Positions 10,101 to 45,455 of a stretch of DNA of 64,000 nucleotides are shown piece by piece. The translations under genes were made by a program, and so were the position numbers. Source of the stretch: a virus. Where the stretch lies: the IMG/VR virus record IMGVR_UViG_3300037520_000900, positions 1-64,000 of that record; one strand, 5' to 3'. The number at the start of each line of letters is the position of its first letter. Positions within the stretch are counted from its first letter, which is position 1. Under the pieces are notes generated by a model, which saw nothing but the letters and a program-made list of their open reading frames with translations, did not search any database and was not told the origin of the DNA.

Positions 10101-13100
10101 TGGATTGAACGTTAGTTTATTTTCTGGTATAAAATTTTTAAGTGAAGAAAATGACCCAAATAATCCCCTATCAAAGGAACCTGGGTTTGAATTTTTAATT
10201 ACACAATCAAAAGATAAGAACCCCTTTACTGAATTTGTAAACCCTATAAGTTGTTTTTCACCTAATATTTGTCCGTCTAAATTTTGATCCGTTAATTGTA
10301 CTCCAGACTTTCCTACAAGAAATAACTGACTAATTTGGTAATAAAGTCTTCTAAGTTTTAAATTTTTTATAGTGTTGGTTTCGGTATAAGAAGGTGGTGA
10401 TACTTCACCTTTTAATATTAAATCTTCGGCCTTTGGTTTGTAGTTACAAAAAGTTAAAAACTTTTCTTCAAATTTATCTAACATTTCAACATTAAATACT
10501 GATAATATTTCATCAATGTATGTATATTCAGATTTTGTGTTTTTTAAATCAAAACTATTTTGTTCACTATTTTTTGTATTAATTGTTTTTAAATATTCGG
10601 TTGGTTTTGGTTTTTTAATAAGTGAATTATCAAAATACCCAAATTGTGACACACCCCATAGTGGTCTTACTGAACCATTGTAAACTGAAGTGTTTCCTGT
10701 GATTTGTATTGTTGGGACATTAAGGTTATTAAACGTTTCAAAGATTGATTGGTCGAATGGTACACCTCCCATTGATGGAAATAACATATAAAATTTACCA
10801 GAAAAATCTAAATTATTTTCTATGTCTAAATATTGATAATAATTGTTTTTAAATAATGAAACATTTGGATTACTTGGGTCATAACCAAAATTGTAAAAAC
10901 TATTTGATACATTATTTCTACCAATTCTAAACTTCTTTTCGTTATATGCTTTAAAAAATGCGTCTTGAGTATAACCTGTAAATAAATCTTTTTTTGAAAA
11001 GTACTTATAAACTTGATTAATGGCCTTTGGGTAAAATCCGGTAAAAATCATGTTCATTGATTTACCCGTTAAATTTGGTATTATCTCATTTTTTTCTAAA
11101 TATATTGTTTCTTGTCCTCCTGTATATGTTGGTATTGTATAACTTTTAGTTATTGCGGAGGTCACTGGATCATAATTTTTTTTGTAATCAAAATCTTTCC
11201 AAACACTATCTAAAATATCTACACCTGTTTTTACAAATTTTTTATATCTATGCCAAATAGATCCGTATTTTAATACCCAAGCATATGGTAGTTGGTGTAT
11301 TGCCGAATATTTTTTTAAGGTTGATGCTAAATAATCTAAGTCAGTTGCAGCACCATTAACGTCAAAACTTTTTAATCTTTCTTTTGTTGTTATTAATGGT
11401 AATGAGTTTAAGTATAAATACCCTAATGGTACATACGCATCTTCTTCCTCGTTGGATTCTTTGTCCACTCCTTCCAGAAGTGCGTTTATAAAATACGGTG
11501 TGTTTATTAAAGATGTTGTTTGAATTTTAGTCCCAACGTTACCCGAATAACTATCACCATAATCAACATAAGATTCTGTAAAGTATAAATCCTTTTGTTT
11601 TTTATCTAAAAAATATTGACTCAATGATTGTCTATTAGAAATTTTAAGTCCATTATATGTGTTAGTTAAATATGGTTGTAAAATATTTATAAATCCGTAT
11701 TTAGAAGTAAAGGGTTGTATGTCTGTTTTAGTTTCAGTTCTATTTAATCTGGCTATTGTTTTTTTATCATCTAAATAAATAAATGTTTTTGTTGTATCAT
11801 AAAAATCATCAACTGAGTTTAACGATTCACCATTAGCCAAATTAGCTTTAATCCAATTTAAATTGGTAAAAGGAAAAGTATCATATAAATCATATTTAGT
11901 TGATTTAGTACTTTCTAAGTAATTTTTTAAATTTTTACCCAATTCCGTATCAGTACTAATGGTAATAGATTTTGTTGGTTGTATTGTTTCAATACTGTAT
12001 ACTTCTTTTTGTTCAGCTAACGCATTTGTTATATATTTTGCATTAAAATTATTTCTAATAAAATTATTCCAACTTTGTCCTGCTCCGTTGTTTGATATTT
12101 TTTTAATATAATCTATAAATCTTTGGTAATTGAATTTATATTCTCTCAAAATATCCTGTAACTCAATACTAGACGTAATTGACGTAACCACATTTTGTCC
12201 TTCCATTTCAGAAAATAATAAATCGACTTGTTGTTTTTCCGCCTCTTCAAAATTAAATCTATTATATTCAGAATTAATTATAGCTCTTTCTATTATTTCA
12301 TACATAACAGAAACAGAATCTAAATTTTGATATGGTAATTCATAAAAAGGAAAAAACAATGCGTTTGGACTAGCAAGAACACTATCACTTTTTGGGTTAT
12401 TATAAACAATCTTATTTGTCTCAGTTTCTTTTACTAAACTCGCCTTTAAAAATTCTTCCACAAAATGTACTTCAGGCCAAATACTGGTATTCCAACCTTT
12501 AGTTTGATTAACAATTTTTGGATCCCCCGGATATTGTATTGTATATAATTCACTTCCGTTGTCTTGTTTTTCTTTTGTAAAATATAATGGCCACGGATAT
12601 ACTATGTTTTCATTATTTAAACTACCTGAAGACGTTTGAATAGAATTTAACCCATCAACCGAAAAATTCTTTTCAGGTGGTATTACTGATAATAATCTTG
12701 TTGTATTTTTTCTTTGGTCCCACGCTCTTTGGTGCGTGTCTTCCATTAATCTATAAAATGCATCGACGCCAGCAAACAACACCGCAAAAATATTTCTAAT
12801 TGTTGGTTTAAATCCAATCCCTCCGTCATCACTTACAACCCTATCTGCCAATATTTTTGACAAATCATCGTCTATTTGTAATTCTTTAACTTCTAATTGT
12901 TTTAATGCATCATCAATTATATCTAAAAAACTATTTGTTTCATAAACACCCTCATCCAATCTAGCATCACCAAAATAATACATTTCTAAAGATTCGTCTT
13001 CTAACTGATTTGTTAGTAAATTTAAAACTTTACTAGGAGCATTAACACGTTCATCAAGTATAAATTTTTCTAATTTTTTTTGACCTTCGGTTGTTGTTAG

Positions 13101-14815: not shown

Positions 14816-17800
14816 TTAGTTAAGTGTTTTTTTCAAATTAAATTTATCTCCAGTTGAGTTTTTAGCTGAATAAATATCCTTCAAATTAGTTTGTTGTGCA
14901 TCTGTTGGTGTTAAAATTTTAGAGTATGTGAATTCTCTTTGTTTTTCTAAATTGTATGGTAAATAATTCGTATATTTATTTCTGTAAAAATTATCTTTAA
15001 AGGTTAAAAAGTATACGTCAGTATCTTCTTTAGCCTTTTTATAATCAGCATATAAACCTACACTTAATGGTTCGTTTTTAAATACTCCCGTTGTTAGATC
15101 AAGTGAAAAATTCCAACCTACGTTTTTAGCAATAAATGATTGCCAATCAATGTCTGTTGGTGTATTTTTAACGGGCTCTATTACTGTTGTTATAAATTTA
15201 AGGGGGTCTTCAAGTATTGATTTTCCAAAAACCATAAAACAAACATTTTCAGTTCCAATTAAAGATTTTATTTGTAGTCCTATGTCGTAACTAAACTTTT
15301 CATTATATTTACCAACAGGGGATGTTAATAAAATGTCTTCTTCTAATTTTGAATTTAACTCAGTTAAATCCGTGTTAATTTTTGTGAAGTCTTGTTTTAA
15401 TTCATCAAACGTATTTGAAACCCCAACGCTACTTGCATTTACTTTTGACGTGCCGGTTATACCATAAACAACCACACCCCCCATTTTATTTATGTACCCA
15501 TCAGTACCATCAACAACATAATTAATGGTATCTATCATTTTAATCAATGGAATTTCATCTTTGACTATTGTAGAATTCGCGGTTTCTACATTAGCTAAAT
15601 AAGTTGGTTTAAGCGCTTCCGCCATTTGTTTCAACTTATTTTTAATTTTTCTTATGTCATCTTTTTTAAAATTTTGAGTACCAATACCTCTTAAAATAGG
15701 TATTGTTTCGTTTTCTATACTCTCTTTTAATTTTTCAAAAAGGTTATCAACTTTTGGTTGTATATTATTACTTTTTCCAAATATAGTTGTCCCACTTGAG
15801 GTATTACCACTCAAATAGTCAAAAAGACCTTTATTGTAAACTCTTTCACCGTTTAATATTGATACACCACCTAATAAACTTTTATTATATAATTCAACTA
15901 TTGAGTTGACGTAAGTTTCAGAATATGATTTGCTCTTATTAACCAAATCTTTCATAATGTCTTTATAATTTATATCTCCACTAACGACACCGGTGTCAGC
16001 ATTAAACACGTTACTTGTTAATGTACCTATCGTAACACCACCATCATTTGTTGGGGGTCTATTAAAATTATCAACAACCCCTAACTCATCTTTAATGCTT
16101 TTAATTATTTCAGCATCATACTTTGACGTAACGTCTTCAGTGGCTTCCGCTCTTTCATCATACATTTCTGTATTCGCATAATAGTTAAAAGATAGTGCGT
16201 TTTGTAATTTTGCAACAGGTCCAGCCATTCCATGTGCCCCAATAAATTTAAACCCTAACTTAACAGTTACAATCATTGGTTGTACTCCAATTCCTTCAGG
16301 ATTTAAATCCAATAAAGAATCATCGTAAGTTAAACTTAATGAATCAAATACAACTTTTGTGTGCCAAAAGTCACCCATTCTTAAAACACAAACAGGAGGT
16401 GCCCCAAATACACTATTAGTAACATCATTATAAACTAACGTAGTTCCTCCACCGTTTACTTCACTTACAGTTGGTATGGTATCGCCGGGTCTCATCATTT
16501 GTTGTAAGAACACTAATCTAGCGTTTAAACCTTCAGGTGTTATTGAATGAAAGGCGGGTTGAAAGTATTTAATTTTTTCTTTTATCCCGTCATAAATCAT
16601 TGGGTTTGATTGTCTAACTAAATCAAAATAATTACATTCCGTTAATAGTTTTCTAAGTAATTTTTTAGTTATATCTTTTCTTGGTTCTGTTCTTTTTTTC
16701 TCGACTTTTCTTTTTTCAATAACTTTACTTACTGTTGGTATATTTTCTGTAGGTATGTTTAAAACAGGGTCTGGATCTGGATTTTCTTGTGGTAGAATTG
16801 TCTCTTCTTTTTCGACTTCTTTTTGTACTTCATTTTTTGGTGGTATAGTCTCATTTTTTTCTTGTGTTGGTTTTATGACTTCAATTCCTGAAATTTTTAC
16901 TCTCCTACAAGCAGATGCGTTAATAGAAAAAACACCTTCCTCACCTATTGTTATATATTCTTTTGAACAATCAATGCTTTTGTACTTAGGGTCTTCAATT
17001 GTTTCGTTTTCACCTTTTGGTTCTTCAGTTATAATTAATTTTTTATTTTTAATATATTTGTCAAGGGTTTCTCCTTCATAACTAAAACTTTTTATATATT
17101 GTAAAACAGAATCAATTCTTCTTGTTGATAACTTGATATTATAATCATCGGTAGTGATAGCAGATGCCGATCCAATAATTTTAAACCTTATTTCAGCACC
17201 TGACTTTAAAGCTTTAAATATGTCTGTTAATAATTTTTTTAGTTGTTCAAACTGAAAGCCAGCATAATCAAAAAATTCAAGCATAGAACTTTTTCTTGCA
17301 TCTATATATTCAGTTAACCAAGTCTGCGTACTAGAATTTGGTAAACTAGTTATTTGATTTGTATAATCTTTATACGTTGCATCATCATATTTAATTATTT
17401 TATTTAATGCGGAATTAGAATATGGGTTTTTTCTACCCTTAAAATCATCCCAAAGTTTATCATAACTCAAGGTTGATGTAATCCTTGTGGTTTTTTTATC
17501 CGGATAATCATTTCTAAAATAAAGAACGGGTTCGGTAATATTAAACTCAGTCACTGCTGTAGTTGCTGTTGAAGCACTCGGTGTTGGCGTAGGAGTGGGT
17601 GTTGGTGTTGGCGTAGGAGTGGGTGTTGGTGTTGGGGTGGCACTCGGTGTTGGTGTAGGTGTTGGTGTAGGTGTTGTTAGTTCTCCTAATGTAGTTTCAT
17701 TCTTATCTACATTTGTGTTTGGTAATGTTTCAGTTATTGTTTCAATTTCTTCATCATCTAAATAACTTATTGTTTCAAATATGTCTTTAATAGTAAATTG

Positions 17801-20800
17801 TCTATATCTTTTTGCTAAGTCATATATGTCGTATTTTAAGCATCCCGCAAAAAACGAATCCATTACTTTAGTTATTTCTGTATTATTTCCTAAATCTTGT
17901 AATTCCTTCTCAACTAAAAGATTAGTAATAGAAGGGTTATCAACAATAATCTTAAATGAAATATTTCCACTTCTACTTGTATTTTGATAGGTATATACGG
18001 GTTCAGGTCTGCCTAAAAAATTATGATCCGTCCATCCCGCCTGAATACTTTCATCAAAGTCTAGTTCATATGGTGGAAACCACATGATTCTACCTCCAAA
18101 AGGTCCCTTTTCACAATCAGGTAAATCTTCATACGTATATCCTGGTTTATTTGATGTCCTCCATGCAAGATTTTCAATAGATAACATGTATTTTTTTACC
18201 TTTCCATTTTGAATGTTTGTAGATTCATTACCCCTTATTGGTGCAATATTTAAATTATAAGTTTTATCAAGTACTGAGTTTGTATATTTTCTAATATTAC
18301 CGTCGGTTTTTTGTAATTCATCGTATGTCATGTACGGTCTATCTTTTGTGAATAACCTACAATATTCATAACCAACAACATCTTTACCCGCAGGTGATGT
18401 GGGATTTGAAGTTTTAGTGGTATATCTAATTACCCTTGAACCTTTAGTTAGTTCAACGTATCCGTCATTGAAAACTTTTGAGACTTGGTTTATCGCATTT
18501 CCAACATGTTCTAATTTCAAACTAGATTTGTTCCCAGCATCAACTAATTTTTGGGTAATATCTAAAATAGAACCTTTAGTAAATTTATTATTATATGATT
18601 GTGTAGAATCAAATTGAACTCCGAACACTCTACTTTCATAAAATGTTTTATCAACTCCAAGCCCTTGCCCTAACGTATTTACAGTTTTACCTAAAGGTCC
18701 GACAAATTGGTATTTTTGAATATAATTTTTTTTAGACATCCAAGTTATTCCACCTTGAACCCCACTTAATCCATCAAAATATGGTCTTGTATTAAACCCA
18801 CTATATAAATCTGTTATTTTTTTTCCTTCAAATTCTTTACCTATATTACTATAACTTAATACGGGTCCTCCACTTGGGTCTCCGTTTTTATCTTCCGCCT
18901 GTTCATTTACAGGAGAGACTAATTCTGTTATTTGATTTTTTCTTGTTCCAATATAAAAATTTGGATCCGGTGAAAATAAATTTGGGTTTAATAATGAATT
19001 TAACCTATAATCGGGTCTATACTCGTTATAAAAAAGTTGCTCATATAAAATACTCTTTGTTGCTTCAGATGTGTTATTAACAAATAAATCAGAAGATGAT
19101 TTACTATTTGCACCTGTCAATTTCCTTATTATCCCCAAAGGACCCGCAATTAACGGTGCTATTGGATTTTCAATAAGTTGGTTTAGCATCCTTCTATTTG
19201 GGTAGTCGAAGTATTCTCCAGGTATTAAAGAAAATGGTGAATAAAGTCCCGCCAATTTTGCTGCAAAACCAATTGCGTCACCAACTATTCCTTGTGGTGC
19301 ACTAATTTTATAATTTCTTTCTAATACCGGTACATTACCACTAAGAATACCTATCGCATTAAACGGGTCTAAGTTTGGTTTTACTGAGACTTCTCCACTA
19401 TCAGGATTAATACTTGATGTTAATGCATTTACCCTACCTACGGTTTGTGACAATAACTCTAACGCAACTCTATGTTTAAATTCTTTTTGTAGTTGTTTAG
19501 CCCCTAAACTTGCTAAATCTGAATCTTGTGAAAGTTTTCCATTTGATCCTGTCGGATTTTTTGCTAATAAAATACTGTATGGTGTATATGTTGACGGAAT
19601 AAATCCTAAAGTTTTAAGTCCATCAGCATATGCTGTTCCAAAAGTTTTAATTTGTAAATCATCTATTGTTAAAACTTCATACGTACCTGTACCTGTAACG
19701 TATTTATTTTTTACATACGCCTGTTCTTCTTTTGTGGAACCAACAATCTCTAATTCACTATTTATAGTATCATTTAAATCATAAATTCCTTTATTTGGTT
19801 TTTTTGGTAAATTAACGTTTGGATCTGCAACCGTTAAATCGTTTGTTTCAGGTCTATAACTATTAGAAATTAATTGTTCTAAATTTATTTCCCCAATTTG
19901 TTCTAATTGGCTATCGACTGTATCAGGAAACCCGTACTCACCTTCATTTGTGTTTGTTTGAAGATTTACATTAATTGTTTGTTCTTTTCTTGGGTTTGAT
20001 GGTCCGTATTGATTTAACACTATTTGAAGTGGTCTATCTTTAACCCCTTCTAAAAATAATTCACTATTTAAAGTATCACCATAATCGTAATTACCTTTTT
20101 GTTCTATTGGTTTTGGTATAATGGTAAAAGGTGCAACCTCTGTTTGGCTTTGTGGTCCTTCAGGTCCGTATTCGTTTTTAATTAATAAATTAATTTTTTC
20201 ATTTCTACCGATGTTCTCTAAATTATTACCAATAGTATCTAAAAAATTATATTCACCTTCGTTTGAACCTAATATTAAATCATTATTAATTGTATACCTT
20301 GTTGGTCCAAAATCTCCAGGTTGTTCAGGAGTGTATTTATTTTTTATTCTTGATTGTACCTCTTGTATGTTACCAACTTGCTCTAATACACTATTTTCAG
20401 TATCAACAATTGAGTATTGTCCTGAACCATTTGTGAATATAGTTTGGTCATTGTTAATATACCAAACAGCACCTCCAAAATTATTTGTGTTATTAGGTTT
20501 ATAAACGTTTTTAACGATTAGTTCAGTTTCTTTTGTGTCTCCTATAGTTTCTAATTTAGATCCAACAGTTCTAGAGTACCCATAAATTCCAAGATTGGAG
20601 TTTGTAAAAATAGTATTATTTACATTTACTGTTTCGCCATATGATGTTCCGAATTCTGTTGGTCCGTATAAATTTTTAACAAATAAATAATTTTCTTGTA
20701 CTTGTCCAACATTTTCTAATTTAGAACCTACAGTTCTTGGGTACCCATAAACACCTAAATTAGCGTTTGTAAAAATAGTATTATTTACATTAACAATATT

Positions 20801-21211
20801 TCCATATGATGTTCCAAAACCTATAGGTCCGTATAAATTTTTTACATATAATAAATTTTCTTGTGTGTCTCCAATATTTTCAAGTTTACTACCAATAGTG
20901 TCAGAAAAATCATACTCACCAAAGTTAGTACTTGTATTTAAATTTTTGTTTATATTTATTGTATCTCCGTAAGTTGAATTTGTTTGTTGGGGCCCATATT
21001 TGTTTTGTTTATAAAGAAATTTTTCTTGCTGGTTACCAACAACATCAACTGTTGGTGAGTCAATGACCGAAAAATCAATTATTGTAAATTCGTTACTTCC
21101 CGGTTTTGAGTATTCGCCAAAACTACCGTCAACCTTGTAAGGTTTTAAATTTCTTATAAGGAGTTTTTTTCTAAAATTTTCACTTGAGTTGAATGATAGC
21201 GGACTTTCCAT
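14816..21211 (-). CDS. Giant baseplate/tail protein with tandem N-terminal repeats, PT-rich linker and OmpA-like domain
   Basis: 2131 residues. Residues about 20-490 form roughly nine imperfect repeats of 50-58 residues with the core YG.TVNVNN, G.YGY..TVGSKLE.IG and VKN.YGP. A middle domain carries RIMWFPPYELDFDE and GRPEPVYTYQ. A Pro-Thr linker (about 1174-1212) leads to an OmpA-C-like domain (about 1310-1390; NIKLSTRRIDSVLQYI fits the N..LS..R....V..YI helix). After a charged linker comes a domain with ITPEGLNARLVFLQQ and LNPEGIGVQPMIVTVKL. OmpA-like domains bind peptidoglycan, so a role in cell-wall contact during infection is plausible. It follows the tape measure gene by 37 nt and precedes the gp53-like gene. 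The exact virion location is inferred. Confidence 0.7.
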   Translation of the reverse strand: MESPLSFNSSENFRKKLLIRNLKPYKVDGSFGEYSKPGSNEFTIIDFSVIDSPTVDVVGNQQEKFLYKQNKYGPQQTNSTYGDTININKNLNTSTNFGEYDFSDTIGSKLENIGDTQENLLYVKNLYGPIGFGTSYGNIVNVNNTIFTNANLGVYGYPRTVGSKLENVGQVQENYLFVKNLYGPTEFGTSYGETVNVNNTIFTNSNLGIYGYSRTVGSKLETIGDTKETELIVKNVYKPNNTNNFGGAVWYINNDQTIFTNGSGQYSIVDTENSVLEQVGNIQEVQSRIKNKYTPEQPGDFGPTRYTINNDLILGSNEGEYNFLDTIGNNLENIGRNEKINLLIKNEYGPEGPQSQTEVAPFTIIPKPIEQKGNYDYGDTLNSELFLEGVKDRPLQIVLNQYGPSNPRKEQTINVNLQTNTNEGEYGFPDTVDSQLEQIGEINLEQLISNSYRPETNDLTVADPNVNLPKKPNKGIYDLNDTINSELEIVGSTKEEQAYVKNKYVTGTGTYEVLTIDDLQIKTFGTAYADGLKTLGFIPSTYTPYSILLAKNPTGSNGKLSQDSDLASLGAKQLQKEFKHRVALELLSQTVGRVNALTSSINPDSGEVSVKPNLDPFNAIGILSGNVPVLERNYKISAPQGIVGDAIGFAAKLAGLYSPFSLIPGEYFDYPNRRMLNQLIENPIAPLIAGPLGIIRKLTGANSKSSSDLFVNNTSEATKSILYEQLFYNEYRPDYRLNSLLNPNLFSPDPNFYIGTRKNQITELVSPVNEQAEDKNGDPSGGPVLSYSNIGKEFEGKKITDLYSGFNTRPYFDGLSGVQGGITWMSKKNYIQKYQFVGPLGKTVNTLGQGLGVDKTFYESRVFGVQFDSTQSYNNKFTKGSILDITQKLVDAGNKSSLKLEHVGNAINQVSKVFNDGYVELTKGSRVIRYTTKTSNPTSPAGKDVVGYEYCRLFTKDRPYMTYDELQKTDGNIRKYTNSVLDKTYNLNIAPIRGNESTNIQNGKVKKYMLSIENLAWRTSNKPGYTYEDLPDCEKGPFGGRIMWFPPYELDFDESIQAGWTDHNFLGRPEPVYTYQNTSRSGNISFKIIVDNPSITNLLVEKELQDLGNNTEITKVMDSFFAGCLKYDIYDLAKRYRQFTIKDIFETISYLDDEEIETITETLPNTNVDKNETTLGELTTPTPTPTPTPSATPTPTPTPTPTPTPTPTPTPSASTATTAVTEFNITEPVLYFRNDYPDKKTTRITSTLSYDKLWDDFKGRKNPYSNSALNKIIKYDDATYKDYTNQITSLPNSSTQTWLTEYIDARKSSMLEFFDYAGFQFEQLKKLLTDIFKALKSGAEIRFKIIGSASAITTDDYNIKLSTRRIDSVLQYIKSFSYEGETLDKYIKNKKLIITEEPKGENETIEDPKYKSIDCSKEYITIGEEGVFSINASACRRVKISGIEVIKPTQEKNETIPPKNEVQKEVEKEETILPQENPDPDPVLNIPTENIPTVSKVIEKRKVEKKRTEPRKDITKKLLRKLLTECNYFDLVRQSNPMIYDGIKEKIKYFQPAFHSITPEGLNARLVFLQQMMRPGDTIPTVSEVNGGGTTLVYNDVTNSVFGAPPVCVLRMGDFWHTKVVFDSLSLTYDDSLLDLNPEGIGVQPMIVTVKLGFKFIGAHGMAGPVAKLQNALSFNYYANTEMYDERAEATEDVTSKYDAEIIKSIKDELGVVDNFNRPPTNDGGVTIGTLTSNVFNADTGVVSGDINYKDIMKDLVNKSKSYSETYVNSIVELYNKSLLGGVSILNGERVYNKGLFDYLSGNTSSGTTIFGKSNNIQPKVDNLFEKLKESIENETIPILRGIGTQNFKKDDIRKIKNKLKQMAEALKPTYLANVETANSTIVKDEIPLIKMIDTINYVVDGTDGYINKMGGVVVYGITGTSKVNASSVGVSNTFDELKQDFTKINTDLTELNSKLEEDILLTSPVGKYNEKFSYDIGLQIKSLIGTENVCFMVFGKSILEDPLKFITTVIEPVKNTPTDIDWQSFIAKNVGWNFSLDLTTGVFKNEPLSVGLYADYKKAKEDTDVYFLTFKDNFYRNKYTNYLPYNLEKQREFTYSKILTPTDAQQTNLKDIYSAKNSTGDKFNLKKTLN
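17578..17685 (-). repeat. Pro-Thr coding tandem repeat (PT linker)
   Basis: A run of GGTGTT/GGAGTG-type hexamers on the plus strand encodes alternating Pro-Thr, interrupted by Ser-Ala, on the minus strand. It encodes a flexible extended linker just before the OmpA-like domain and is a likely site of length variation by slippage. Confidence 0.9.
19740..21150 (-). repeat. Imperfect tandem repeats of about 150-175 bp in the 2131-residue gene
   Basis: These encode about nine copies of a 50-58 residue unit. Adjacent copies near 20,560-20,880 are highly similar at DNA level, with shared stretches such as the codons for TIFTN and VGSKLE. The outer copies are much more diverged, indicating recent duplication or homogenisation of the central units. 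Confidence 0.8.
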
Positions 21212-25031: not shown

Positions 25032-25991
25032 TTAATCAAATCTAGTTTTTTTACCTCCTTTAGTTAAATATAAATTAACTGGACTTTTTTCATATTCTTT
25101 CTTTAAAAATTCAGATGAGGCTTCAATATTTCTTGGGTCGTCATCAGAAAACCCTAAAGAAGTGTATTCCCCAACAAATTCCTCCACATCTTCCACCGGC
25201 TCAGACATCGCAACATCGTTTTTAAATTTTGGTGTCAAGTCTGATAATTTTATATTAGGGTTATTATCTAAAATAAACTGAACAAGATTTTTTGCCTGTT
25301 CTCTACAATAAGATATAAATTGTTTTAATGCCTTATTTTTACCTTCTTCAGGAGATGTTGCACTACCACTACCATAAGAAACAGGATGAAACTTACACAT
25401 GTTTAAATATTGTTCTATAGTAGTACTCATTCTTGGTCTCATATCTTCGGTTAAACTTTCGTTTGCCAATAAATCATATTTTCTAAGACTTTCTTCTAAT
25501 TTTTTTCTATTCAAACCATTCTTATCTGACATAATAAGATTATAAACAGCCTCTTTTAATGTCTTTGGGTTATGTCCCCTTGCCGTAATAATCGCAAAAA
25601 TAGAACCACCATTTATACACTCCACAAAATCATTCCATGCTGGACCAACAGGGGCCATCATACAATCCATTAAAAATCTTTTGTCCCCTTCTTCTCTAAA
25701 AAACCTAAAAGGATTTTCTGCGAAATTTATAATAGTTGCACTCTTATATTTAAATGGTTCTTGACCTATTTGTAATCTGTGTTCGGCAAAGTCTTCTGTA
25801 GACATCCCTATCTCATCATCGTTTTCAGATAATACCATAATTTTTGTTGGCATAAACATGATATTATCATCCCAATCAAAAGCATAATATTTTAAATCAG
25901 GTCTAAGTGTGTTGTTATCTTCATCACCAATTAACCCTTCATTAAGTCTTTTCTTAATAACTTGATTATATATATGTTTTCTTACATTCAT
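25032..25991 (-). CDS. HAD-superfamily (DWDDN) protein in the tail operon
   Basis: 319 residues. After an N-terminal basic helix ending KKRLNE/GLI, residues 36-43 read YAFDWDDN, fitting HAD motif I with Asp39 as nucleophile and Asp41 as acid/base. FAIITARGH (Thr136) fits motif II. Later regions are helical and acidic, without a clear motif III/IV. A phosphatase or nucleotidyl hydrolase activity is likely, but the substrate is unknown. It lies between sheath and tube, an odd place for an enzyme. Its ATG overlaps the TGA of the 46-residue gene (ATGA), implying coupled translation. The N-terminal IKKRLNE could be a prohead-protease cleavage tag, making it a packaged protein (speculative). Confidence 0.75.
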   Translation of the reverse strand: MNVRKHIYNQVIKKRLNEGLIGDEDNNTLRPDLKYYAFDWDDNIMFMPTKIMVLSENDDEIGMSTEDFAEHRLQIGQEPFKYKSATIINFAENPFRFFREEGDKRFLMDCMMAPVGPAWNDFVECINGGSIFAIITARGHNPKTLKEAVYNLIMSDKNGLNRKKLEESLRKYDLLANESLTEDMRPRMSTTIEQYLNMCKFHPVSYGSGSATSPEEGKNKALKQFISYCREQAKNLVQFILDNNPNIKLSDLTPKFKNDVAMSEPVEDVEEFVGEYTSLGFSDDDPRNIEASSEFLKKEYEKSPVNLYLTKGGKKTRFD

Positions 25992-31325: not shown

Positions 31326-31835
31326 TTAATATCCTCCATATCTTTTTCTATCTCTATCTAAATGTCTACGTAATTCTTGTCTTCTTTTACTAGTGTCATT
31401 AATACCCGTCTCATCTTGATATTTTTTAAATGAACTTTCCCATTTTGAAATATCGTCATCAAAATCTTTTAAATATGGTGCGTTTTTCTTAAAATCATCC
31501 ACTTTTGTTCCAAGTTCGTCATATTCACTTTGATAAGCGTCCACATCAAAATCCGAAGGTCTATTTTTAACAACATCAGAATATCTATCTTCTTCTTGTT
31601 TTGCTCTATAATCACGTTTTTTATTTTTTAACTCCATATGTCTTGGTTCGTCCCTCCATTTTTCAAATTCAGGTTCAAATAAATCAATATCACCATCAAA
31701 ATCGTTTAGGTACGGTGCTTTAGATCTAATATCTTGAAGTTCCATTTCATCTTCATCTGACCATTCATTCTCTCTAATTACTCGTCTTACAATTCTTGTA
31801 AGATCTGATTCAGTTAATCTAACTATTCTTTTCAT
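31326..31835 (-). CDS. Uncharacterised acidic protein with internal duplication and N-terminal LTESDL tag
   Basis: 169 residues, highly charged and helical. It starts MKRIVRLTESDLTRIVRRVI, a basic amphipathic helix with an L-T-E tripeptide. The body contains two copies of a 24-residue unit: APYLNDFDGDIDLFEPEFEKW (about 39-62) and APYLKDFDDDISKWESSFKKY (about 117-140). The gene forms its own unit, with a TATTTATA element 29 nt upstream and a strong terminator behind it. Probably a virion-associated or packaged protein, going by the tag and its location next to the neck genes. Function unknown. Confidence 0.75.
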   Translation of the reverse strand: MKRIVRLTESDLTRIVRRVIRENEWSDEDEMELQDIRSKAPYLNDFDGDIDLFEPEFEKWRDEPRHMELKNKKRDYRAKQEEDRYSDVVKNRPSDFDVDAYQSEYDELGTKVDDFKKNAPYLKDFDDDISKWESSFKKYQDETGINDTSKRRQELRRHLDRDRKRYGGY

Positions 31836-31932: not shown

Positions 31933-33696
31933 ATGGAAGAACTAATTTCAAAAACTCCCGAAACAAGAGCCGTTCAATTGTTAGAAGAATATGAAGGGTC
32001 AAATAACTATATCTTGGCGTTAAAATACAAAAAGAATAATAGTAAATCATTTACACCCACAAGATCACAGGCCGAATACATTATAAATTTTCACGGACGA
32101 ACACCAAAAGTTGCAAAAAAATGGGTCAAACTTGATTCGTATTTTGGTAAAAAAATGATGGAAGAAAAAATGTACACCAAAGAACCAACAGAGATATATG
32201 TTGAGAAACTTTTGGTTGAGAAAGACAAATCATATCATATTTGGGGTAAGATATTTAGTGGTGATACCGTACATGACTTTTGGTTACCAAAATCGGCACT
32301 TATAAAAGATAACGAAGTGAAAAACGTTATTGTTGATTACAACAAATACAACCATAGACTTCCGATGGATCACCAAAAAGAGGCGATCACTAAATTGGTT
32401 GGTAACAAAAAATTCATATTGGCTGATGATATGGGACTTGGTAAAACTACATCAACGATAATATCCGCACTTGAAACGGGAGCAAAAAAAATATTAATAG
32501 TTTGTCCAGCATCTTTAAAAATAAATTGGCAACGTGAAATTGAAAATTATTCAGATAGGTCTGTTTATATTTCGGAAGGTAAAAAATTTTCTACTGAATC
32601 TGATTTTGTTATAATTAATTATGACATATTAAAAAACTTTCACGACCCAAAAAAGAAAGACGACTCTATTATTTTAAATTCTAATTTTGATTTGGTAATT
32701 ATGGACGAAGCTCACATGATTTCAAATCCACAAGCACAAAGAACAAAAATTGTAAATGATTTATGTGGAAAGGTTGAAAGAGTTTGGTTATTAACAGGAA
32801 CCCCAATGACATCAAGACCAATGAACTATTATAATCTTTTAAGTTTGGTTGAAAGCCCTGTTGCTGCAAATTGGATGGCTTATGCTAAAAGATACTGTAA
32901 TGGGTTTCAATTTAGTGTTGGAAAAAGAAAAGTATGGAATGTAGCTGGAGCCTCTAACTTGGATGAACTAAGAGAAAGAACTCAATCACATATTTTAAGA
33001 AGATTAAAAGAAGACGTATTAGATTTACCCGATAAAATTATTACACCTGTTTATTTAAGATTAAAGTCAAAAGATTATGAAGAACTTATGGGGGAATACT
33101 TCAATTGGTATGACAACAACTCAGAAGAGTCATCATCTTTAACAATTCAGTTTGGAAAACTAATGAAAGTTAGAAAGGTGATTGCTGAAGAAAAAGTTAA
33201 AAACACAATTGAATTGGCTGAAAATATTATTGAACAAGGGAAAAAAGTAATCATATTTACAAATTTTACAGACACATTACGAACAATTTATGAACACTTT
33301 GAAAAACAGGCGGTTTATTTAGACGGGTCTTGTTCAAAACCTCACCGACAAAAAGCTGTGGACGATTTTCAAGAAAATGATAAAATTAAAGTTTTTGTTG
33401 GTAATTTAAAAGCTGCTGGTGTTGGTATTACATTAACCTCAGCAGAAGCCGTAATCATGAATGATTTATCCTTTGTTCCTGCAGAACACGCACAAGCAGA
33501 AGACAGGTCTCATAGAATAGGTCAAAAAAATTCAACTTCAGTTTATTACCCTTTATTTGAAAACACAATAGAGGGTGTGATCTATGACATTTTAAATAGA
33601 AAGAAAAAAATCATATCAACAGTCATGGGTGATGACATGATGGAAGACGCATCTTCAATTGAAGAAATGTTAAATTTAATTTCTTCTAAGAGGTGA
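31933..33696 (+). CDS. SNF2-family DNA helicase/translocase (UvsW-like role)
   Basis: 587 residues. An N-terminal domain (1-145) is followed by a superfamily 2 core: HQKEAI, ADDMGLGKTT (Walker A, about 164-173), VCPASLKINWQREI, VIMDEAH (about 255-261), LLTGTPMTSRP, and a second RecA domain with VIIFTNFTDTL, GNLKAAGVGITLTSAE and QAEDRSHRIGQ (motif VI). The set is typical of SNF2, closest in style to SMARCAL1-type annealing helicases. In T4-like phages an SF2 enzyme (UvsW) rewinds R-loops and remodels forks, so the same role is likely here. First gene of the plus-strand block; 12 nt separate it from the zincin-SOD gene. Confidence 0.9.
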   Translation: MEELISKTPETRAVQLLEEYEGSNNYILALKYKKNNSKSFTPTRSQAEYIINFHGRTPKVAKKWVKLDSYFGKKMMEEKMYTKEPTEIYVEKLLVEKDKSYHIWGKIFSGDTVHDFWLPKSALIKDNEVKNVIVDYNKYNHRLPMDHQKEAITKLVGNKKFILADDMGLGKTTSTIISALETGAKKILIVCPASLKINWQREIENYSDRSVYISEGKKFSTESDFVIINYDILKNFHDPKKKDDSIILNSNFDLVIMDEAHMISNPQAQRTKIVNDLCGKVERVWLLTGTPMTSRPMNYYNLLSLVESPVAANWMAYAKRYCNGFQFSVGKRKVWNVAGASNLDELRERTQSHILRRLKEDVLDLPDKIITPVYLRLKSKDYEELMGEYFNWYDNNSEESSSLTIQFGKLMKVRKVIAEEKVKNTIELAENIIEQGKKVIIFTNFTDTLRTIYEHFEKQAVYLDGSCSKPHRQKAVDDFQENDKIKVFVGNLKAAGVGITLTSAEAVIMNDLSFVPAEHAQAEDRSHRIGQKNSTSVYYPLFENTIEGVIYDILNRKKKIISTVMGDDMMEDASSIEEMLNLISSKR

Positions 33697-33704
33697 TATT
33701 TATA
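33697..33704 (+). promoter_or_regulatory. TATTTATA element upstream of the zincin-SOD gene
   Basis: GATATTTATAATACATG: the 8-mer overlaps the end of the SNF2 stop region and stands 4 nt before the ATG. Confidence 0.4.
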
Positions 33705-33708
33705 ATAC

Positions 33709-34800
33709 ATGAAAGTTAATATCACCTATAAAGGTTATGTTCCGACAAAAGAACAAAAAAGTCTTTTTGAAAAATTTATAGATTTTTTAAAAAAATCACA
33801 CCCATTAAAAAAAGATATTGATATTGTCTTTACCAAAGAAAGATACGGTAAGATGACAACAGGTGTAAGAACAAAAGATGACCTTATAAAAATTTTAGTA
33901 AAAGATAGATTAAATAGGGATATTCTAAAAACATTGTCTCATGAGTGGATGCACGAATATCAAAGAACGATATTAGGTAGAAAAAAAGGACCTAACATTG
34001 GTGGTAAAAATGAAGATGAAGCAAACGCTGTTTCAGGGGCCGATGTAAAAAAATTTGAAAAGGGTAACGAAAAACTAGAAAAAATAATTTACAAAAAATT
34101 TCAAAACAAAATTGATAAAATTGAAGAGGGGTTAAATGTCGAGTCATTCAATAATAAACTTTTAATAAATGAAATTAAAAAAGTTAGTATTGAAAGTTTA
34201 CCTTATGGTTATGGGGACTTAACAAATTTTATTGACTCTGAAACTATGAAAACTCATTACACAAAACACTACAAAGGTTATGTTGATAAATTAAACGTTG
34301 AATTAGAAAAAGTTAAAGGTAAAGATATTGATTTAGAAGAAATTATTACAAAAATATCAAAATTTAATAATAAAGTTAAAAATAATGGTGGGGGGGCTTT
34401 CAACCACGCATTATTTTGGAAAATGTTGTCACCAAAAAAACAAACAATTCAGGACCCAATAAAAAATGAAATTGAAAAAAACTTTGGTTCTTTTGAAAAA
34501 TTTAAAGAAAAATTTGAAGAAGAATCAAAAAATAGATTTGGTTCAGGTTGGGTTTGGTTAATACTAACCGACACCAACAGATTAAAGATTGTCTCAACGT
34601 CAAATCAAGATAACCCACTTATGAATACAGAAAAAGAACGGGGTTATCCGTTATTAGGTCTTGATGTTTGGGAACATGCATACTATTTAAAATATAAAAA
34701 CAAAAGAGACGATTACGTAAAAAACTTTTGGAAAGTTGTTAATTGGAGTTTTGTAAATGATCAATATACAACAAGAGTAGATATAAACAAATCAAAATAA
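33709..34800 (+). CDS. HEXXH zincin fused to an Fe/Mn-type superoxide dismutase
   Basis: 363 residues in one uninterrupted frame. The N-terminal domain (1-145) has LSHEWMHEYQ, a zincin HEXXH at 78-82, and a downstream GGKNEDEANA offering a third zinc ligand. The C-terminal domain (about 160-363) is a full Fe/Mn superoxide dismutase. It has ESLPYGYGDL, ligand His183 in THYTKHYKGYV, NNGGGAFNHALFW with His233, FGSGWVWL, STSNQDNPLM, and LGLDVWEHAYYLKY with Asp319 and His323. All four metal ligands are present. The GGG before His233 and Gln300 favour the Mn type. The linker contains LLINE, an I-x-E motif like those cut by T4-type prohead proteases. The enzyme would turn superoxide into peroxide and oxygen. 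No Met lies between the domains to allow a separate SOD start. Confidence 0.9.
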   Translation: MKVNITYKGYVPTKEQKSLFEKFIDFLKKSHPLKKDIDIVFTKERYGKMTTGVRTKDDLIKILVKDRLNRDILKTLSHEWMHEYQRTILGRKKGPNIGGKNEDEANAVSGADVKKFEKGNEKLEKIIYKKFQNKIDKIEEGLNVESFNNKLLINEIKKVSIESLPYGYGDLTNFIDSETMKTHYTKHYKGYVDKLNVELEKVKGKDIDLEEIITKISKFNNKVKNNGGGAFNHALFWKMLSPKKQTIQDPIKNEIEKNFGSFEKFKEKFEEESKNRFGSGWVWLILTDTNRLKIVSTSNQDNPLMNTEKERGYPLLGLDVWEHAYYLKYKNKRDDYVKNFWKVVNWSFVNDQYTTRVDINKSK

Positions 34801-34828: not shown

Positions 34829-35950
34829 ATGGCCTCTACTGTAATTATTACCGGTCCTGAAAGAGAAGCACTTTATAAAAGAATAAGAAATTTACTTGGT
34901 GCCCCTCTTCGTTCAGTTGAATTAGAAGACGAAATGTTAGATTCTCTTTTAGAACTTTCTATTGAAGATTATGAACAACATATCCAAGATTGGCTAATTG
35001 AAGCTCAATGGACTTCTGTTTATGGTTTAAATTTAGATGAACAATCAATAACAAGAGCACTTACAACTCGTGATATGAATTGGGAAACTCAATACACTTA
35101 CGCATATTCAAAAATTGTAGGACTACAGGCTGGTGGGGATTGGGTATTAGAAAAAGATTATATTGATTTAGTCCCTAACCAACAAATGTATGAAATACCG
35201 GCAGGTAGAGAAGTCAATGAATTATTATGGTTTGCTCGTTCTGAATTAGATGCTGCTTACTTCGATCCATTTATGGGTGGATTTGGTGGATTTGGTGGTA
35301 TTGGTCTTGGTGGTGGTGCGGGGTTTTCTCAAATGGGGACTACCGGTAATTATTTTATTACACCAGCTTCTGATATTCTTTTAAGAATGGCAGATATACA
35401 AATGAAAAGAAGAATTATTACCGGAGATTTAACATATAGAATAACGGCACTTCCTGAAGGTAAAAAGGCCATACATTTATATAATGTTCCTGGTGGTAAA
35501 TTTGATTTTGGTAACATGCAAAGAAATAAATATAGAGTATGGTATTGGTATTACGATACTTTTGATAGGGAGGATTGTTTAGATAAAAATCCAGACGTTG
35601 TTAGATTACCTTCAGATGTTCCTTTAGAAAAATTAAGATGGGATAAATTAAATAACCCTTCTAAAACTTGGGTTAGAAGGTGGTTTACCGCATATTGTAA
35701 AGAAAGTCTTGCAAGGGTAAGAGGAAAATATAGTGGTAGTTTAAAAACACCTGATAGTGAATTAACTTTAGAATATACAACATTACAGTCAGAAGCAAAA
35801 GACGAAAAAACTATGTTGTGGGAAGAACTTAAAACTCGTTTAGAAAGATTAAGACCTGAGAAAATGATGGAGGCGAAAGCACTACAAGCAGAAAATTTAA
35901 ACAAACTTTTAAAGTTCAGAGCATTTACAAGTCCGTATAATGTAATATAA
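34829..35950 (+). CDS. Neck / head-completion protein, T4 gp13-like
   Basis: 373 residues. The N-terminus (RIRNLLGAPLRSVELEDEMLDSLLELSIEDYEQHIQDW) parallels T4 gp13 ([34 protein letters not shown]), the helical adaptor signature. A beta region and a Gly/Phe-rich loop (about 150-172, MGGFGGFGGIGLGGGAG) follow. The rest contains WVRRWFTAYCKESLARVRGKYSG and a helical C-terminus. gp13 sits below the portal and receives the tail through gp14. Its separation from the gp14- and gp15-like genes on the other strand, about 3 kb away, is unusual for T4-like order. Confidence 0.75.
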   Translation: MASTVIITGPEREALYKRIRNLLGAPLRSVELEDEMLDSLLELSIEDYEQHIQDWLIEAQWTSVYGLNLDEQSITRALTTRDMNWETQYTYAYSKIVGLQAGGDWVLEKDYIDLVPNQQMYEIPAGREVNELLWFARSELDAAYFDPFMGGFGGFGGIGLGGGAGFSQMGTTGNYFITPASDILLRMADIQMKRRIITGDLTYRITALPEGKKAIHLYNVPGGKFDFGNMQRNKYRVWYWYYDTFDREDCLDKNPDVVRLPSDVPLEKLRWDKLNNPSKTWVRRWFTAYCKESLARVRGKYSGSLKTPDSELTLEYTTLQSEAKDEKTMLWEELKTRLERLRPEKMMEAKALQAENLNKLLKFRAFTSPYNVI

Positions 35951-41696: not shown

Positions 41697-44600
41697 TTAA
41701 TCTGTTATATCTACAATATTTAATACGTCAGCTGAATCGTAATAAGATAATCTAGGTGCACCATCTTGTCTACCGAATATCGTACAATTATATCCACCAT
41801 AAACGTGTGTTGCTGGACCACTAGTAAAATCAAAAGCCTCAACACCAAATTCCACTGTATTATAACGGAAATCATCACCAACTGTATTTTGATGAAAATT
41901 ATCGGTTGTAATTCTATTATTGAAAAATCCCGTCCCAACAGTATTGTCATAAAAGTAGTAACCAATAAAGTTAGAACCGAAATTATTACCAACACTGTTA
42001 TTGTTAAATGCAAAGCCTATTTCATTACTGTAAAAGTTAATACCAATGTTATTGTTATTAAAACCACCACCAATGTTATTACCATAGAAAGGACCATCAG
42101 TAGTATTATTGTTAAACCTGTTACCTATTTGGTTATTTTGAAATTCGGCAAATCCAGAGACATCGTTTATTACATTATTAAAAAATTCATTTCCTATGTC
42201 ATTTCTTCTAAAAATTGCGTCAGTGGTATTGTTGTAAAACTCATCACCAATTAAGTTATCGATGAAGTTATTATTAATTACATTACCTCCAGCATTATTT
42301 GATGTATCGTTCCCAAAATAATTTCCAATTTTGTTATTTGTGAAAACCCCATCAATTACATTTTCAGTACCTGAACCACCATTACCAAAATAGTGACCAA
42401 TATCGTTATTTTCAAAAGTATTATTTATAGTATTAAACGCCATATAATTACCAATCTTATTAGAAACAAAATCAGAAGATATTGTATTTCCTACACATAC
42501 ATTTGATATATTGTTATCGACAAAATTTGGATTTAAGATGTTGAATATAAAATCATTTCCGATTTTATTATTTGTTGTGTTTGTGTCTGTTATATTAAAA
42601 GTAAAATTATCACCTATAACATTTCCAGAAAAACCATTATTAATTAAATTACCTCCGTCGACACCTAAATAATTTCCAAAGTTATTTCCGATTACGTTTG
42701 ATTTAAAGTCGTCAAAAATTTGATTGGTTAAACCTGGTGACCCAAAACCATTATTTCCAAAATTATCTGCAATTGTATTTTTTTGAAAGTTTAGTCCTAT
42801 TGTGTTATTAAAGAAATAATTACCAATTCTATTACTTTCAAAAGCATCGTCTATAGAATTACTTTGGAAATTGTTTTGAATTAAATTGTTTTCAAAATTG
42901 ATCCCTATAGTGTTATCTTGAAAATAATTCCCAATTACATTACTGTACATGTATTGACCAATAGTGTTATTTTGAAATCTGTCTCCTATTCTATTTCCGT
43001 ATTCTAATGATCCTCCATAACCAAAATCACTATCTATTATGTTATTATTAAAATAAGAACCAATTATATTATACGCAAATCTTTCACCATTATTTGATTG
43101 TGTGTAGATTGAGTTCCATTCGGTGTCACCAGGACCTGGCCAACCACCACCGAATGGAGGTGTATCAGTTATTGTATTATATAACCCACCTTGACCGTCT
43201 CTTGTTATTTCTACAACACCAGAAACAATAACATCTACTTCTGAACCATAATTAGTTTTAGTAAAAATAACGAATGAACCTATGTTATTACCATTTGAAT
43301 CTATTTCTTGTCTTTCGTATTGGAATCCGCCACCATTTCCTCCTTGTGTCCATTGTGTAAATTTAATTTTAAAATATTGTTGTGTTGATATAACTCTCAT
43401 CACAAGTTCTTTACCTAAAATATAATTACCAACATTATTATCAAGTGAAACTCTTAATGTATCATATGTTCTTGTTGATACTGTTGATAAGTCATTCCAC
43501 CCAAATAAATCTGAGTTAGAAGGCCTATTGTTTTCAAAATAAGTACCGACTGTATTAGTCCTAAAACCACTACTAATTATATTATCGTTAAAATAATAAT
43601 CAGTCGTGTTATTAGAAAAATCATCATATATAATATTTTCATTAAACCCATTACCAATATTATTTAAACCAAAATAGTTACCGGTTGTGTTATTGTTAAA
43701 TCCATTTAAAATGGTATTACCAATAAATTCACCATTAATTTCATTTGATTGGAAGTTTGTACCAACTTGATTATTTTGGAAATCTCGTCTAATTGTGTTA
43801 TTATTAAAATTATTACGAATATAATTTCTATAAAAATCAAAATTACCATAGTTAGCAAAGTCACCAATTGTGTTGCTATTAAAGTTATCTAATACTTCAT
43901 TTTTGTAAAAATCAGGATAAATCGTGTTACCATTAAATTCATTAGCAATTAGGTTATCATAAAATTGTGAAAATATTTCGTTATCATAAAATCCATGACC
44001 AATTGAATTATAATTAAAATTTCCATCAATAACATTATTATAAAAACCGTTTCTAATTTTGTTATCCCCAAAGTCGCTGTATATGGTGTTATCATTAAAT
44101 CCGACACATATTTGGTTATCAACGAAATTGCTGTTATTAAAGATTTTATTATTATTAAAATTATCTCCAATTACATTATCATTAAAATCGTCACAGATTA
44201 TTAAATTATTTCTGAAATTAGCGGCTATTTGATTATCAGTGAAATCCCAACCATTATAAATTGTATTATTCTCAAACTCGTCTCCTATAACATTATGTTC
44301 AACATCACTACTAAATGTGTTATTTATAAACTCGTTACCTATTCTGTTTCCAATTACGTCCTCACCAAAGACATTATTTGGTAATAAAAAATCATGCTCA
44401 CTCCAGTTTCTAAATATTGCAACATCTCCAATGTAATTTGAAATTATATCTTCATCTCCAAATAAGAATGTAGGATGTTCTGTGTATTGAATTGATATAT
44501 TATTTTGTTTATAGGTAAGTCCTGATCTTTGTGCAGGATAAAAACTAGCACCTGCCGAAACAGTGGGTATAGTTAATCCACTTACCACCATACTCGTGTC

Positions 44601-45455
44601 ACCAGATATTGATACAATTTCAAAGAAAGTCACATTTGTATCAGGAATCGCTATGTGGTCACCAACATTATAATTTGAAAATTTAGTTTCTCTACCTATT
44701 ACTTCACCTGTATTTTCAATTAGTTCAATCGTTCCTTCAGCAATATTGTTTTCTTTATAATAGTAGTTATCGTACCTTCTAAACAAAACTGATCTATGAT
44801 CATAATCAGTTCTATTACTAAACTCATCTATTCTTTCAGTGATTCTACCTTTTGCTTGACCCAAAGTAACTTCTGTTTGATTCCATGACCAATCATATTT
44901 TATTTTATCTTTTGGATATGTTGGTTGGTAAGCAATATTACTTATTGTGTTCGCACTTGTTGATAGAACAACGATTGGTTCTATAGGTCCTTGTTTGTAA
45001 TTGCCCGTAGTAATTGCACTACCCGCAAAGTTATAATCAGGTTGGTCATAACAAGTTTGAAAATCATTGATTAGATAATACGAACCTGGGTTTAATGTTC
45101 CACCTGTAATTAAATTATATAATTCACTATATGTTACAGAACTATAATTAGTTGTTGCAACACCAGTAAGATTAGAGCCATCCCCAAATAAGGTGGTGGC
45201 ACTAAAAGTACTTGCACTTAAACCATTATTAAAAATAGTATCTCCCGATACAGTACCACCTGTAAATGTACCACCGGTATTTATCACCACAGATTTTGTT
45301 CCACCTGTTGGGTTTGTTATTGTTAAAGTATTTGCAGAATAAGTAAGACCTGAAACACCTACCCCTTGCAAATAATAAAGGTTATTGTCCATGTCAGAAA
45401 AAGTAAGTTTACTACCCTTAGCATCTGGACCTATTTGTCTTGTAATTAATCCCAT
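41697..45455 (-). CDS. Giant tail-fibre/adhesin with nonapeptide (NxIGxxFxN) solenoid
   Basis: 1252 residues. The N-terminus (residues 1-105) has fibre features: SDMDNNLYYLQG, then SATTLFGDGSNLTG. A globular region follows to about residue 340. From there to about 645, and again from about 795 to 1205, the chain is almost entirely nine-residue units of the form N-x-I-x-x-x-F-x-x (examples NTIGINFEN, NVIGNYFQD, NLIANEFNG), some 70 units in all. The two solenoid stretches are separated by a beta domain (about 650-785). The C-terminus has an aromatic cap (THVYGGYNCTIFGRQ). Regular inward Ile and Phe with Asn at corners predicts a beta-helix-like rod. It is first after the 642-residue gene in the fibre block, with a TATTTATT element upstream. 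Confidence 0.75.
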   Translation of the reverse strand: MGLITRQIGPDAKGSKLTFSDMDNNLYYLQGVGVSGLTYSANTLTITNPTGGTKSVVINTGGTFTGGTVSGDTIFNNGLSASTFSATTLFGDGSNLTGVATTNYSSVTYSELYNLITGGTLNPGSYYLINDFQTCYDQPDYNFAGSAITTGNYKQGPIEPIVVLSTSANTISNIAYQPTYPKDKIKYDWSWNQTEVTLGQAKGRITERIDEFSNRTDYDHRSVLFRRYDNYYYKENNIAEGTIELIENTGEVIGRETKFSNYNVGDHIAIPDTNVTFFEIVSISGDTSMVVSGLTIPTVSAGASFYPAQRSGLTYKQNNISIQYTEHPTFLFGDEDIISNYIGDVAIFRNWSEHDFLLPNNVFGEDVIGNRIGNEFINNTFSSDVEHNVIGDEFENNTIYNGWDFTDNQIAANFRNNLIICDDFNDNVIGDNFNNNKIFNNSNFVDNQICVGFNDNTIYSDFGDNKIRNGFYNNVIDGNFNYNSIGHGFYDNEIFSQFYDNLIANEFNGNTIYPDFYKNEVLDNFNSNTIGDFANYGNFDFYRNYIRNNFNNNTIRRDFQNNQVGTNFQSNEINGEFIGNTILNGFNNNTTGNYFGLNNIGNGFNENIIYDDFSNNTTDYYFNDNIISSGFRTNTVGTYFENNRPSNSDLFGWNDLSTVSTRTYDTLRVSLDNNVGNYILGKELVMRVISTQQYFKIKFTQWTQGGNGGGFQYERQEIDSNGNNIGSFVIFTKTNYGSEVDVIVSGVVEITRDGQGGLYNTITDTPPFGGGWPGPGDTEWNSIYTQSNNGERFAYNIIGSYFNNNIIDSDFGYGGSLEYGNRIGDRFQNNTIGQYMYSNVIGNYFQDNTIGINFENNLIQNNFQSNSIDDAFESNRIGNYFFNNTIGLNFQKNTIADNFGNNGFGSPGLTNQIFDDFKSNVIGNNFGNYLGVDGGNLINNGFSGNVIGDNFTFNITDTNTTNNKIGNDFIFNILNPNFVDNNISNVCVGNTISSDFVSNKIGNYMAFNTINNTFENNDIGHYFGNGGSGTENVIDGVFTNNKIGNYFGNDTSNNAGGNVINNNFIDNLIGDEFYNNTTDAIFRRNDIGNEFFNNVINDVSGFAEFQNNQIGNRFNNNTTDGPFYGNNIGGGFNNNNIGINFYSNEIGFAFNNNSVGNNFGSNFIGYYFYDNTVGTGFFNNRITTDNFHQNTVGDDFRYNTVEFGVEAFDFTSGPATHVYGGYNCTIFGRQDGAPRLSYYDSADVLNIVDITD
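41845..44420 (-). repeat. Degenerate 27-bp coding repeats of the nonapeptide solenoid
   Basis: About 70 units in two runs (roughly 44420-43530 and 43090-41845) encode N-x-I-x-x-x-F-x-x. At DNA level the units are diverged but keep AAT/AAC for Asn and an ATT/ATA and TTT/TTC frame. The interruption at about 43500-43100 encodes a separate beta domain. Confidence 0.85.

Follow-up and report, generated by a model that had tools for sequence, protein, structure and literature searches.

The internal proteins IPI-IPIII and Alt of bacteriophage T4 are targeted to the capsid by propeptides, cut by the prohead protease gp21 after the Glu of an L/I-X-E motif, and injected into the host (PMC9026906). A superoxide dismutase (SOD) is packaged in the particle of the chlorovirus PBCV-1, where the Cu/Zn enzyme encoded by a245r is a late viral protein, and infection with PBCV-1 left cells with less superoxide than did infection with a virus lacking the enzyme (PMC7019647). 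SODs of the Fe/Mn type are also encoded by phages, among them Pseudomonas phage Callisto and Vibrio phage 2.275.O. Here we describe a gene in which a zincin-like domain is joined to a Mn-type SOD domain through a propeptide-like linker. It lies at 33709-34800 on the + strand of a 64,000-nucleotide stretch of DNA (positions 1 to 64,000 of IMG/VR virus record IMGVR_UViG_3300037520_000900, hereafter the window). We propose, with a probability of roughly 0.7, that the gene encodes a late head-cargo precursor that would be cleaved as the prohead matures and would reach the host together with the phage DNA.

The locus has in common with the T4 internal proteins a short N-terminal propeptide ending in L/I-X-E, a T4-type protease and capsid protein, and a presumed packaging in the head core. 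The T4 proteins, however, are single cargos, whereas here unrelated domains are strung together in one precursor, with a predicted site at each junction and an antioxidant enzyme among the predicted cargo. The likeness to PBCV-1 lies in a viral SOD that is late and packaged there and is predicted from sequence to be late and packaged here; the PBCV-1 enzyme differs in being of the Cu/Zn and not the Fe/Mn type, in belonging to a eukaryotic algal virus, and in not being described as a fusion or as a cleaved precursor (PMC7019647). The SODs of Callisto and 2.275.O, although likewise of the Fe/Mn type, are about 180-190 residues long, are encoded by separate genes without a zincin, and are distant in the SOD tree. 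In the phage collection, several SOD matches carry the labels of Staphylococcus, Listeria or Enterococcus phages; these sequences resemble host DNA and were not counted among the phage SODs. A domain homologous to the zincin-like part, with HE..H..Q and ENEANA motifs, is found in Synechococcus phage S-SRM01 and related freshwater contigs, but these proteins of 132-135 residues have neither SOD nor linker. Finally, bacterial Mn-SODs have the same full SOD domain and active site, without the linker or the extra domains of the phage proteins.

The gene is a single open reading frame (ORF) of 363 codons that starts with ATG and encodes a zincin-like domain (residues 1-118; 33709-34062), a linker (residues 119-155; 34063-34173) and the SOD domain (residues 156-363; 34174-34797), all on the + strand. 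An earlier interpretation, made from the letters alone (the sequence-only reading), had reported that one frame joins a half with an HEXXH motif to a complete Fe/Mn SOD, and the ORF, the positions of the motifs and the Pfam matches agree with that description. The same reading had considered that a frameshift or an assembly error might have joined two genes. When the architecture was searched for in IMG/VR, the full fusion was recovered uninterrupted and in one open frame in all of the 80 best loci, from 98% down to about 55% identity, and an error of this kind is ruled out by these 80 intact relatives. Moreover, pairwise dN/dS is lowest in the SOD (0.044), followed by the zincin (0.086) and the linker (0.11), and these values indicate that both halves are under purifying selection. 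Because of the intact frames and of this selection, chance and artefact are excluded as the origin of the fusion. One scan of bacterial genomes, with search patterns derived from the SOD half, gave matches to the SOD region in 11 contigs and no fusion, and in plasmids the matches were to the SOD region only. The combination had been thought previously undescribed; no description of it was found in the open-access literature searched, which does not prove novelty.

The SOD half matched Pfam Sod_Fe_N (PF00081) at residues 161-241 (9.5e-22) and Sod_Fe_C (PF02777) at residues 250-351 (5.3e-42), both well beyond the cut-off. A best structural match outside the SODs would have spoken against the initial assignment; the closest solved structures are instead Mn-SODs, namely 6gsc (8e-60), which we take to be the enzyme from Sphingobacterium, and E. 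coli MnSOD (SodA, 1d5n; 2e-56). The four metal ligands that had been assigned, H183 (34255-34257), H233 (34405-34407), D319 (34663-34665) and H323 (34675-34677), were found at these positions by alignment with MnSOD and are invariant among the 37 aligned sequences over which conservation of both domains was judged. H187, Y191, Q300, E322 and Y326, which include second-shell residues, are invariant as well. The Mn-type features noted before, NNGGG at residues 225-229 and NQD at residues 299-301, were also located, and G229 and Q300 align with E. coli MnSOD; at position 230 the phage protein has Ala where the E. coli enzyme has His. The nearest matches in bacterial genomes are 39-48% identical to the phage domain, and in the SOD tree the SODs of this locus stand apart from those of bacteria and of other phages. 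We conclude that the SOD domain is apparently intact and of the Mn type; that it is catalytically active is highly probable.

The linker is partly predicted to be flexible. The lowest confidence of the structural model (pLDDT below 50) falls at residues 137-161, as expected for an accessible linker. Between residues 119 and 152 the median pairwise identity is 35%, with 9% in the most distant pairs, and E155 and K157 are the sole invariant positions between residues 119 and 163 in 50 unique fusions. E155 closes the sequence LLINE (residues 151-155), in which I153-N154-E155 (34165-34173, +) fits the L/I-X-E rule by which the T4 prohead protease cuts. We collected 112 distinct SOD proteins at this locus, and 111 of them have the linker: without exception these have Glu at P1 (111 of 111), at P3 they have Ile or Leu (110) or Val (one), and P2 is occupied by many different residues. 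In the alignment with E. coli MnSOD, a cut after E155 would make the phage SOD begin 1-2 residues ahead of the start of the bacterial enzyme. The sequence-only reading had already proposed LLINE as a T4-type prohead-protease site, and the proposal is strengthened by the presence of [LI]-X-E in essentially all relatives and, in the same genome, of both a protease and a capsid protein with LINE/A (here and below, the slash marks the predicted cut). Judging from the conservation at P1 and P3, cleavage at this site is to be expected with good confidence, and by analogy the linker may be a propeptide-like element for capsid targeting.

Other states of the locus were recovered by a search with the downstream neighbor (34829-35950, +), a gene with a match to phrog_211 (E=9e-11) and weak similarity to a head-tail adaptor family, which adjoins the cargo gene in relatives and is the same in the fusion-bearing relatives wherever the contig extends that far. 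Among 80 loci, 53 encode the zincin-SOD fusion, 23 encode SOD without the zincin, and 4 encode neither. The SOD-only forms comprise 19 distinct proteins, 18 of which open with a propeptide of 25-35 residues that ends in the same [LI]-X-E site, as in L336 (MKKIQDKINLINESLILHEEKENESLFLLE/MKKIGIEKLPY). Thus, the fusion linker corresponds to an N-terminal propeptide, and the zincin to an optional addition in front of it. Since these 18 proteins keep both the propeptide and the site, it is the propeptide and not the zincin that looks like the element for targeting and cleavage. The sequence-only reading had suggested that the SOD might be targeted or processed by the zincin half, and this was therefore abandoned as the main idea. 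In the SOD tree, the presence and absence of the zincin are scattered over different parts, and gain of the zincin is indistinguishable from its loss because the outgroup rows are long-branched.

The precursors also vary at their C-terminal end, a feature that had been overlooked. In 51 proteins the chain extends past the SOD through a second linker, typically KKLNES...LLxE. In the first 48 residues of the tail, at least one [LIV]-X-E is present in 50 of the 50 proteins in which the tail is of sufficient length and at least two in 44, compared with 30% and 0%, respectively, of windows of the same length within the SOD. The extra domains beyond it fall into at least four families, for which profile searches of Pfam, PHROG and the PDB found nothing significant; a PADLOC match of one of them to Cas6 (E=0.003) was treated as due to chance. 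In families A5 and A7 an invariant Asp is followed by Q-x-K (QIKP, QVKP), which, at the level of the motif, is reminiscent of PD-(D/E)XK nucleases. The A5 module also occurs alone, with its own propeptide (...TLVLSE/SKAEKCS), in L304 and L317, the latter of which also encodes an A7-like module in a gene of its own. A single protein of 962 residues in L280 combines about five domains. In the alignments of A5 and A7, L304, L312, L317 and L319 have stand-alone or fused C-terminal modules with D...QxKP and no database match. To judge from these sequences, the protein in the window is one member of a modular precursor family with optional C-terminal domains.

The N-terminal domain is modeled by AlphaFold2 with a pLDDT of about 90 over residues 1-120. 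Its HEXXH motif, HEWMH (residues 78-82; 33940-33954, +), sits within a predicted helix at residues 69-87, and H78, E79 and H82 are invariant. Downstream, EDE (residues 102-104; 34012-34020, +) is part of NEDEAN (residues 101-106), in which N101, E102 and A105 are invariant; E102 is a candidate third zinc ligand and E104, from the sequence alignment, a second candidate for this role. The stand-alone cyanophage domain has its ENEANA at the equivalent place. The peptidase search and the structure prediction that had been envisaged for this half yielded a compact predicted domain, but no significant match to a family or fold: single relatives gave weak matches to SprT-like, M78, M91, DUF4344 and BSP metallopeptidases, and the top Foldseek matches, mostly zincins (M61, thermolysin, YbeY and others), all had E=0.02 or worse. 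We therefore use the label "zincin-like", which is suggested by the motif together with the weak metallopeptidase and fold matches. As a separate protein of 132-135 residues, the domain is present in all 80 loci retrieved with the S-SRM01 protein, itself annotated as a hypothetical protein (L081:7980-8378). The conservation of the catalytic residues argues that the zincin is active. It is probably another cargo and not a targeting part; that it serves as a peptidase delivered together with the SOD is a tentative suggestion.

The machinery that the proposed packaging would use is encoded by the same record (G000), which extends to 80,276 bases. Beyond the window it encodes a T4-type major capsid protein (phrog_138), with ASHLINE/AAST in its N-terminal region, and, at the contig end, a partial T4-type head maturation protease (phrog_207). 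In a relative of 166 kb (G002), the genes for terminase, portal, protease and capsid protein follow one another in this order. The cut site of the capsid protein is kept in relatives, and Flavobacterium phage immuto and phage Mel-JY01 have [IV]SE/A. In comparisons of the capsid protein, the Flavobacterium immuto phages and Rhodothermus phage RM378 are among the closest phages that have names; a record labeled Microcystis phage Mel-JY01 and uncultured phages are also among the neighbors. Shine-Dalgarno-like motifs are nearly absent, being found upstream of 1 of 50 genes in the window and of 5 of 169 genes in G002, which fits a host among the Bacteroidota. The phage is T4-like, probably infects Bacteroidota, and belongs to a group known solely from environmental sequences.

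Just 5' of the start codon of the fusion gene lies TATTTATA (33697-33704, +). All of the distinct upstream sequences examined in relatives have (G/A)TATTTAT, at a distance of 9-15 bases from the start of the gene. The 8-mer TATTTATA occurs upstream of genes 9 times in the window (0.48 expected) and 19 times in G002 (1.1 expected). With the regions of G002 assigned by hand, the core TATTTAT precedes 20 of 52 genes of virion regions and 1 of 49 genes of replication or glycan regions (p=3e-6). By analogy with the T4 late box TATAAATA, of which it is the reverse complement, we interpret TATTTATA as a promoter element of the late type; it is also found upstream of head genes in Flavobacterium phage immuto.

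In the mechanism that we propose, the precursor would be expressed late, and its variable, helix-rich linker would act like a T4 internal-protein propeptide and take it into the prohead core. There, the T4-type head maturation protease would cut after the Glu of [LI]-X-E, freeing a SOD of normal length from the zincin that precedes it and from any extra domain that follows. SOD, zincin and further modules would stay in the head with the DNA and enter the host upon infection, and the SOD would remove superoxide, to the benefit of the DNA in the particle, which it would shield from extracellular oxidants, of the infected cell, or of both. Packaging of the SOD in the virion is a likely outcome on the present sequence data; the odds are about even that an antioxidant benefit follows during particle survival or infection.

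Several observations weigh against a cleaved and packaged precursor. L/I-X-E is a short motif, and the 111 linker-bearing sequences are related, so that the counts at P1 and P3 reflect conservation and not independent events. The residue after the predicted cut is mostly Met or Ile, whereas it is Ala in the capsid protein of the same phage. A capsid-targeting role of the linker is proposed by analogy, and no sequence homology is claimed between the propeptides of this family and those of the T4 internal proteins. One SOD-only protein, L349 (L349:1975-3009), starts at MKKIGIEKLPY without a propeptide; it is otherwise nearly identical to L338 and may be a natural deletion or an assembly variant. 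No N-terminal propeptide precedes the zincin, and the late status of TATTTATA is deduced from its distribution among genes.

Of the other explanations, the most plausible, though still improbable, is that the protein is an auxiliary metabolic enzyme of two domains, which stays uncut and unpackaged and works inside the infected cell, where the SOD eases oxidative stress and the zincin is a passenger or a local peptidase. The stand-alone SODs of other large phages (Vibrio phage 2.275.O, Callisto), the inclusion of an Fe/Mn SOD among the auxiliary genes listed for freshwater viruses (PMC12542629) and the stand-alone zincins in contigs related to S-SRM01 would all suit such an enzyme. It would leave unexplained, however, why a linker that is otherwise variable keeps L/I-X-E with a free middle position, why SOD-only forms carry a propeptide with the same site, and why linkers of the same kind occur on other modules. 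A protein that is packaged and cut but whose SOD fold is non-enzymatic, serving in metal storage or as a structural component of the head, is a good deal less probable: Ala230 in place of the His of E. coli MnSOD would fit this role, but the four ligands and the other active-site residues are invariant, and the dN/dS of the SOD is 0.04. It seems even less credible that the zincin cuts the linker itself, processing either itself or the SOD, with the Glu site as its own specificity. Although an HEXXH domain with invariant catalytic residues stands directly ahead of the linker, the same site is found in SOD homologues without a zincin and in the lone nuclease-like module, and the motif is common to the capsid protein. 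Lastly, both halves occur separately elsewhere, as a chimera assembled from two genes, a frameshift or a contamination would lead one to expect; against this, dozens of separate contigs carry the fusion intact, in conserved synteny and under purifying selection, which leaves such an origin a vanishingly small chance.

A broader possibility, which we hold neither more nor less probable than its opposite, is that the locus between the helicase and the head-tail gene is a cargo-polyprotein system. It would encode strings of interchangeable domains, among them zincin, SOD, two or more families marked by nuclease-like motifs, and others, with prohead-protease sites at the boundaries, so that each capsid would carry a mixed kit of enzymes for delivery to the host. 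If the proposal is correct, this would be a tailed phage whose virion contains an antioxidant enzyme, and one that uses a polyprotein to load several enzymes into its head. [LI]-X-E propeptides could then be used to read out the set of injected proteins of uncultured T4-like phages, and they may provide natural modular tags for capsid loading.

At the level of all N-termini of G002, the loose [LI]xE motif is weakly enriched (15.3 versus 11.9 per thousand), a figure not used as proof; a stricter form of the motif is about 3.5-fold enriched at N-termini (11 sites). Some other proteins start with an amphipathic segment that ends in or near [VIL][LI]xE, such as MKRIVRLTESDLTRIVRRVIREN and MKKIVRLTESDLVNIVKRVIEEQ; the remaining parts of these proteins are unrelated. 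The segments, which are candidate propeptides for head targeting, are encoded in the window at 31326-31835, 25032-25991 and 6148-6852, all on the - strand, and also at L085:12701-13174 and L085:14362-14715.

The gene upstream of the fusion (31933-33696, +) encodes a SNF2-type helicase (Pfam SNF2/Helicase_C, phrog_62). Near the helicase and cargo genes, L312, L317 and L319 have genes that, judged by eye, are HNH-like (METKICSKCKE...) and GIY-YIG-like (MNQFNLYYLSCPTTNEVRYVGITTQPIKNRLLQHL) homing endonuclease genes. Elsewhere in the window, an ORF of 1252 residues (41697-45455, -) consists mostly of short N-rich FxNNxIGxxF repeats and probably encodes a solenoid protein of the virion. Near tail and baseplate genes lie two giant ORFs of 2457 and 2131 residues (7131-14504 and 14816-21211, both on the - strand), and ORFs of like size and placement are present in G002.
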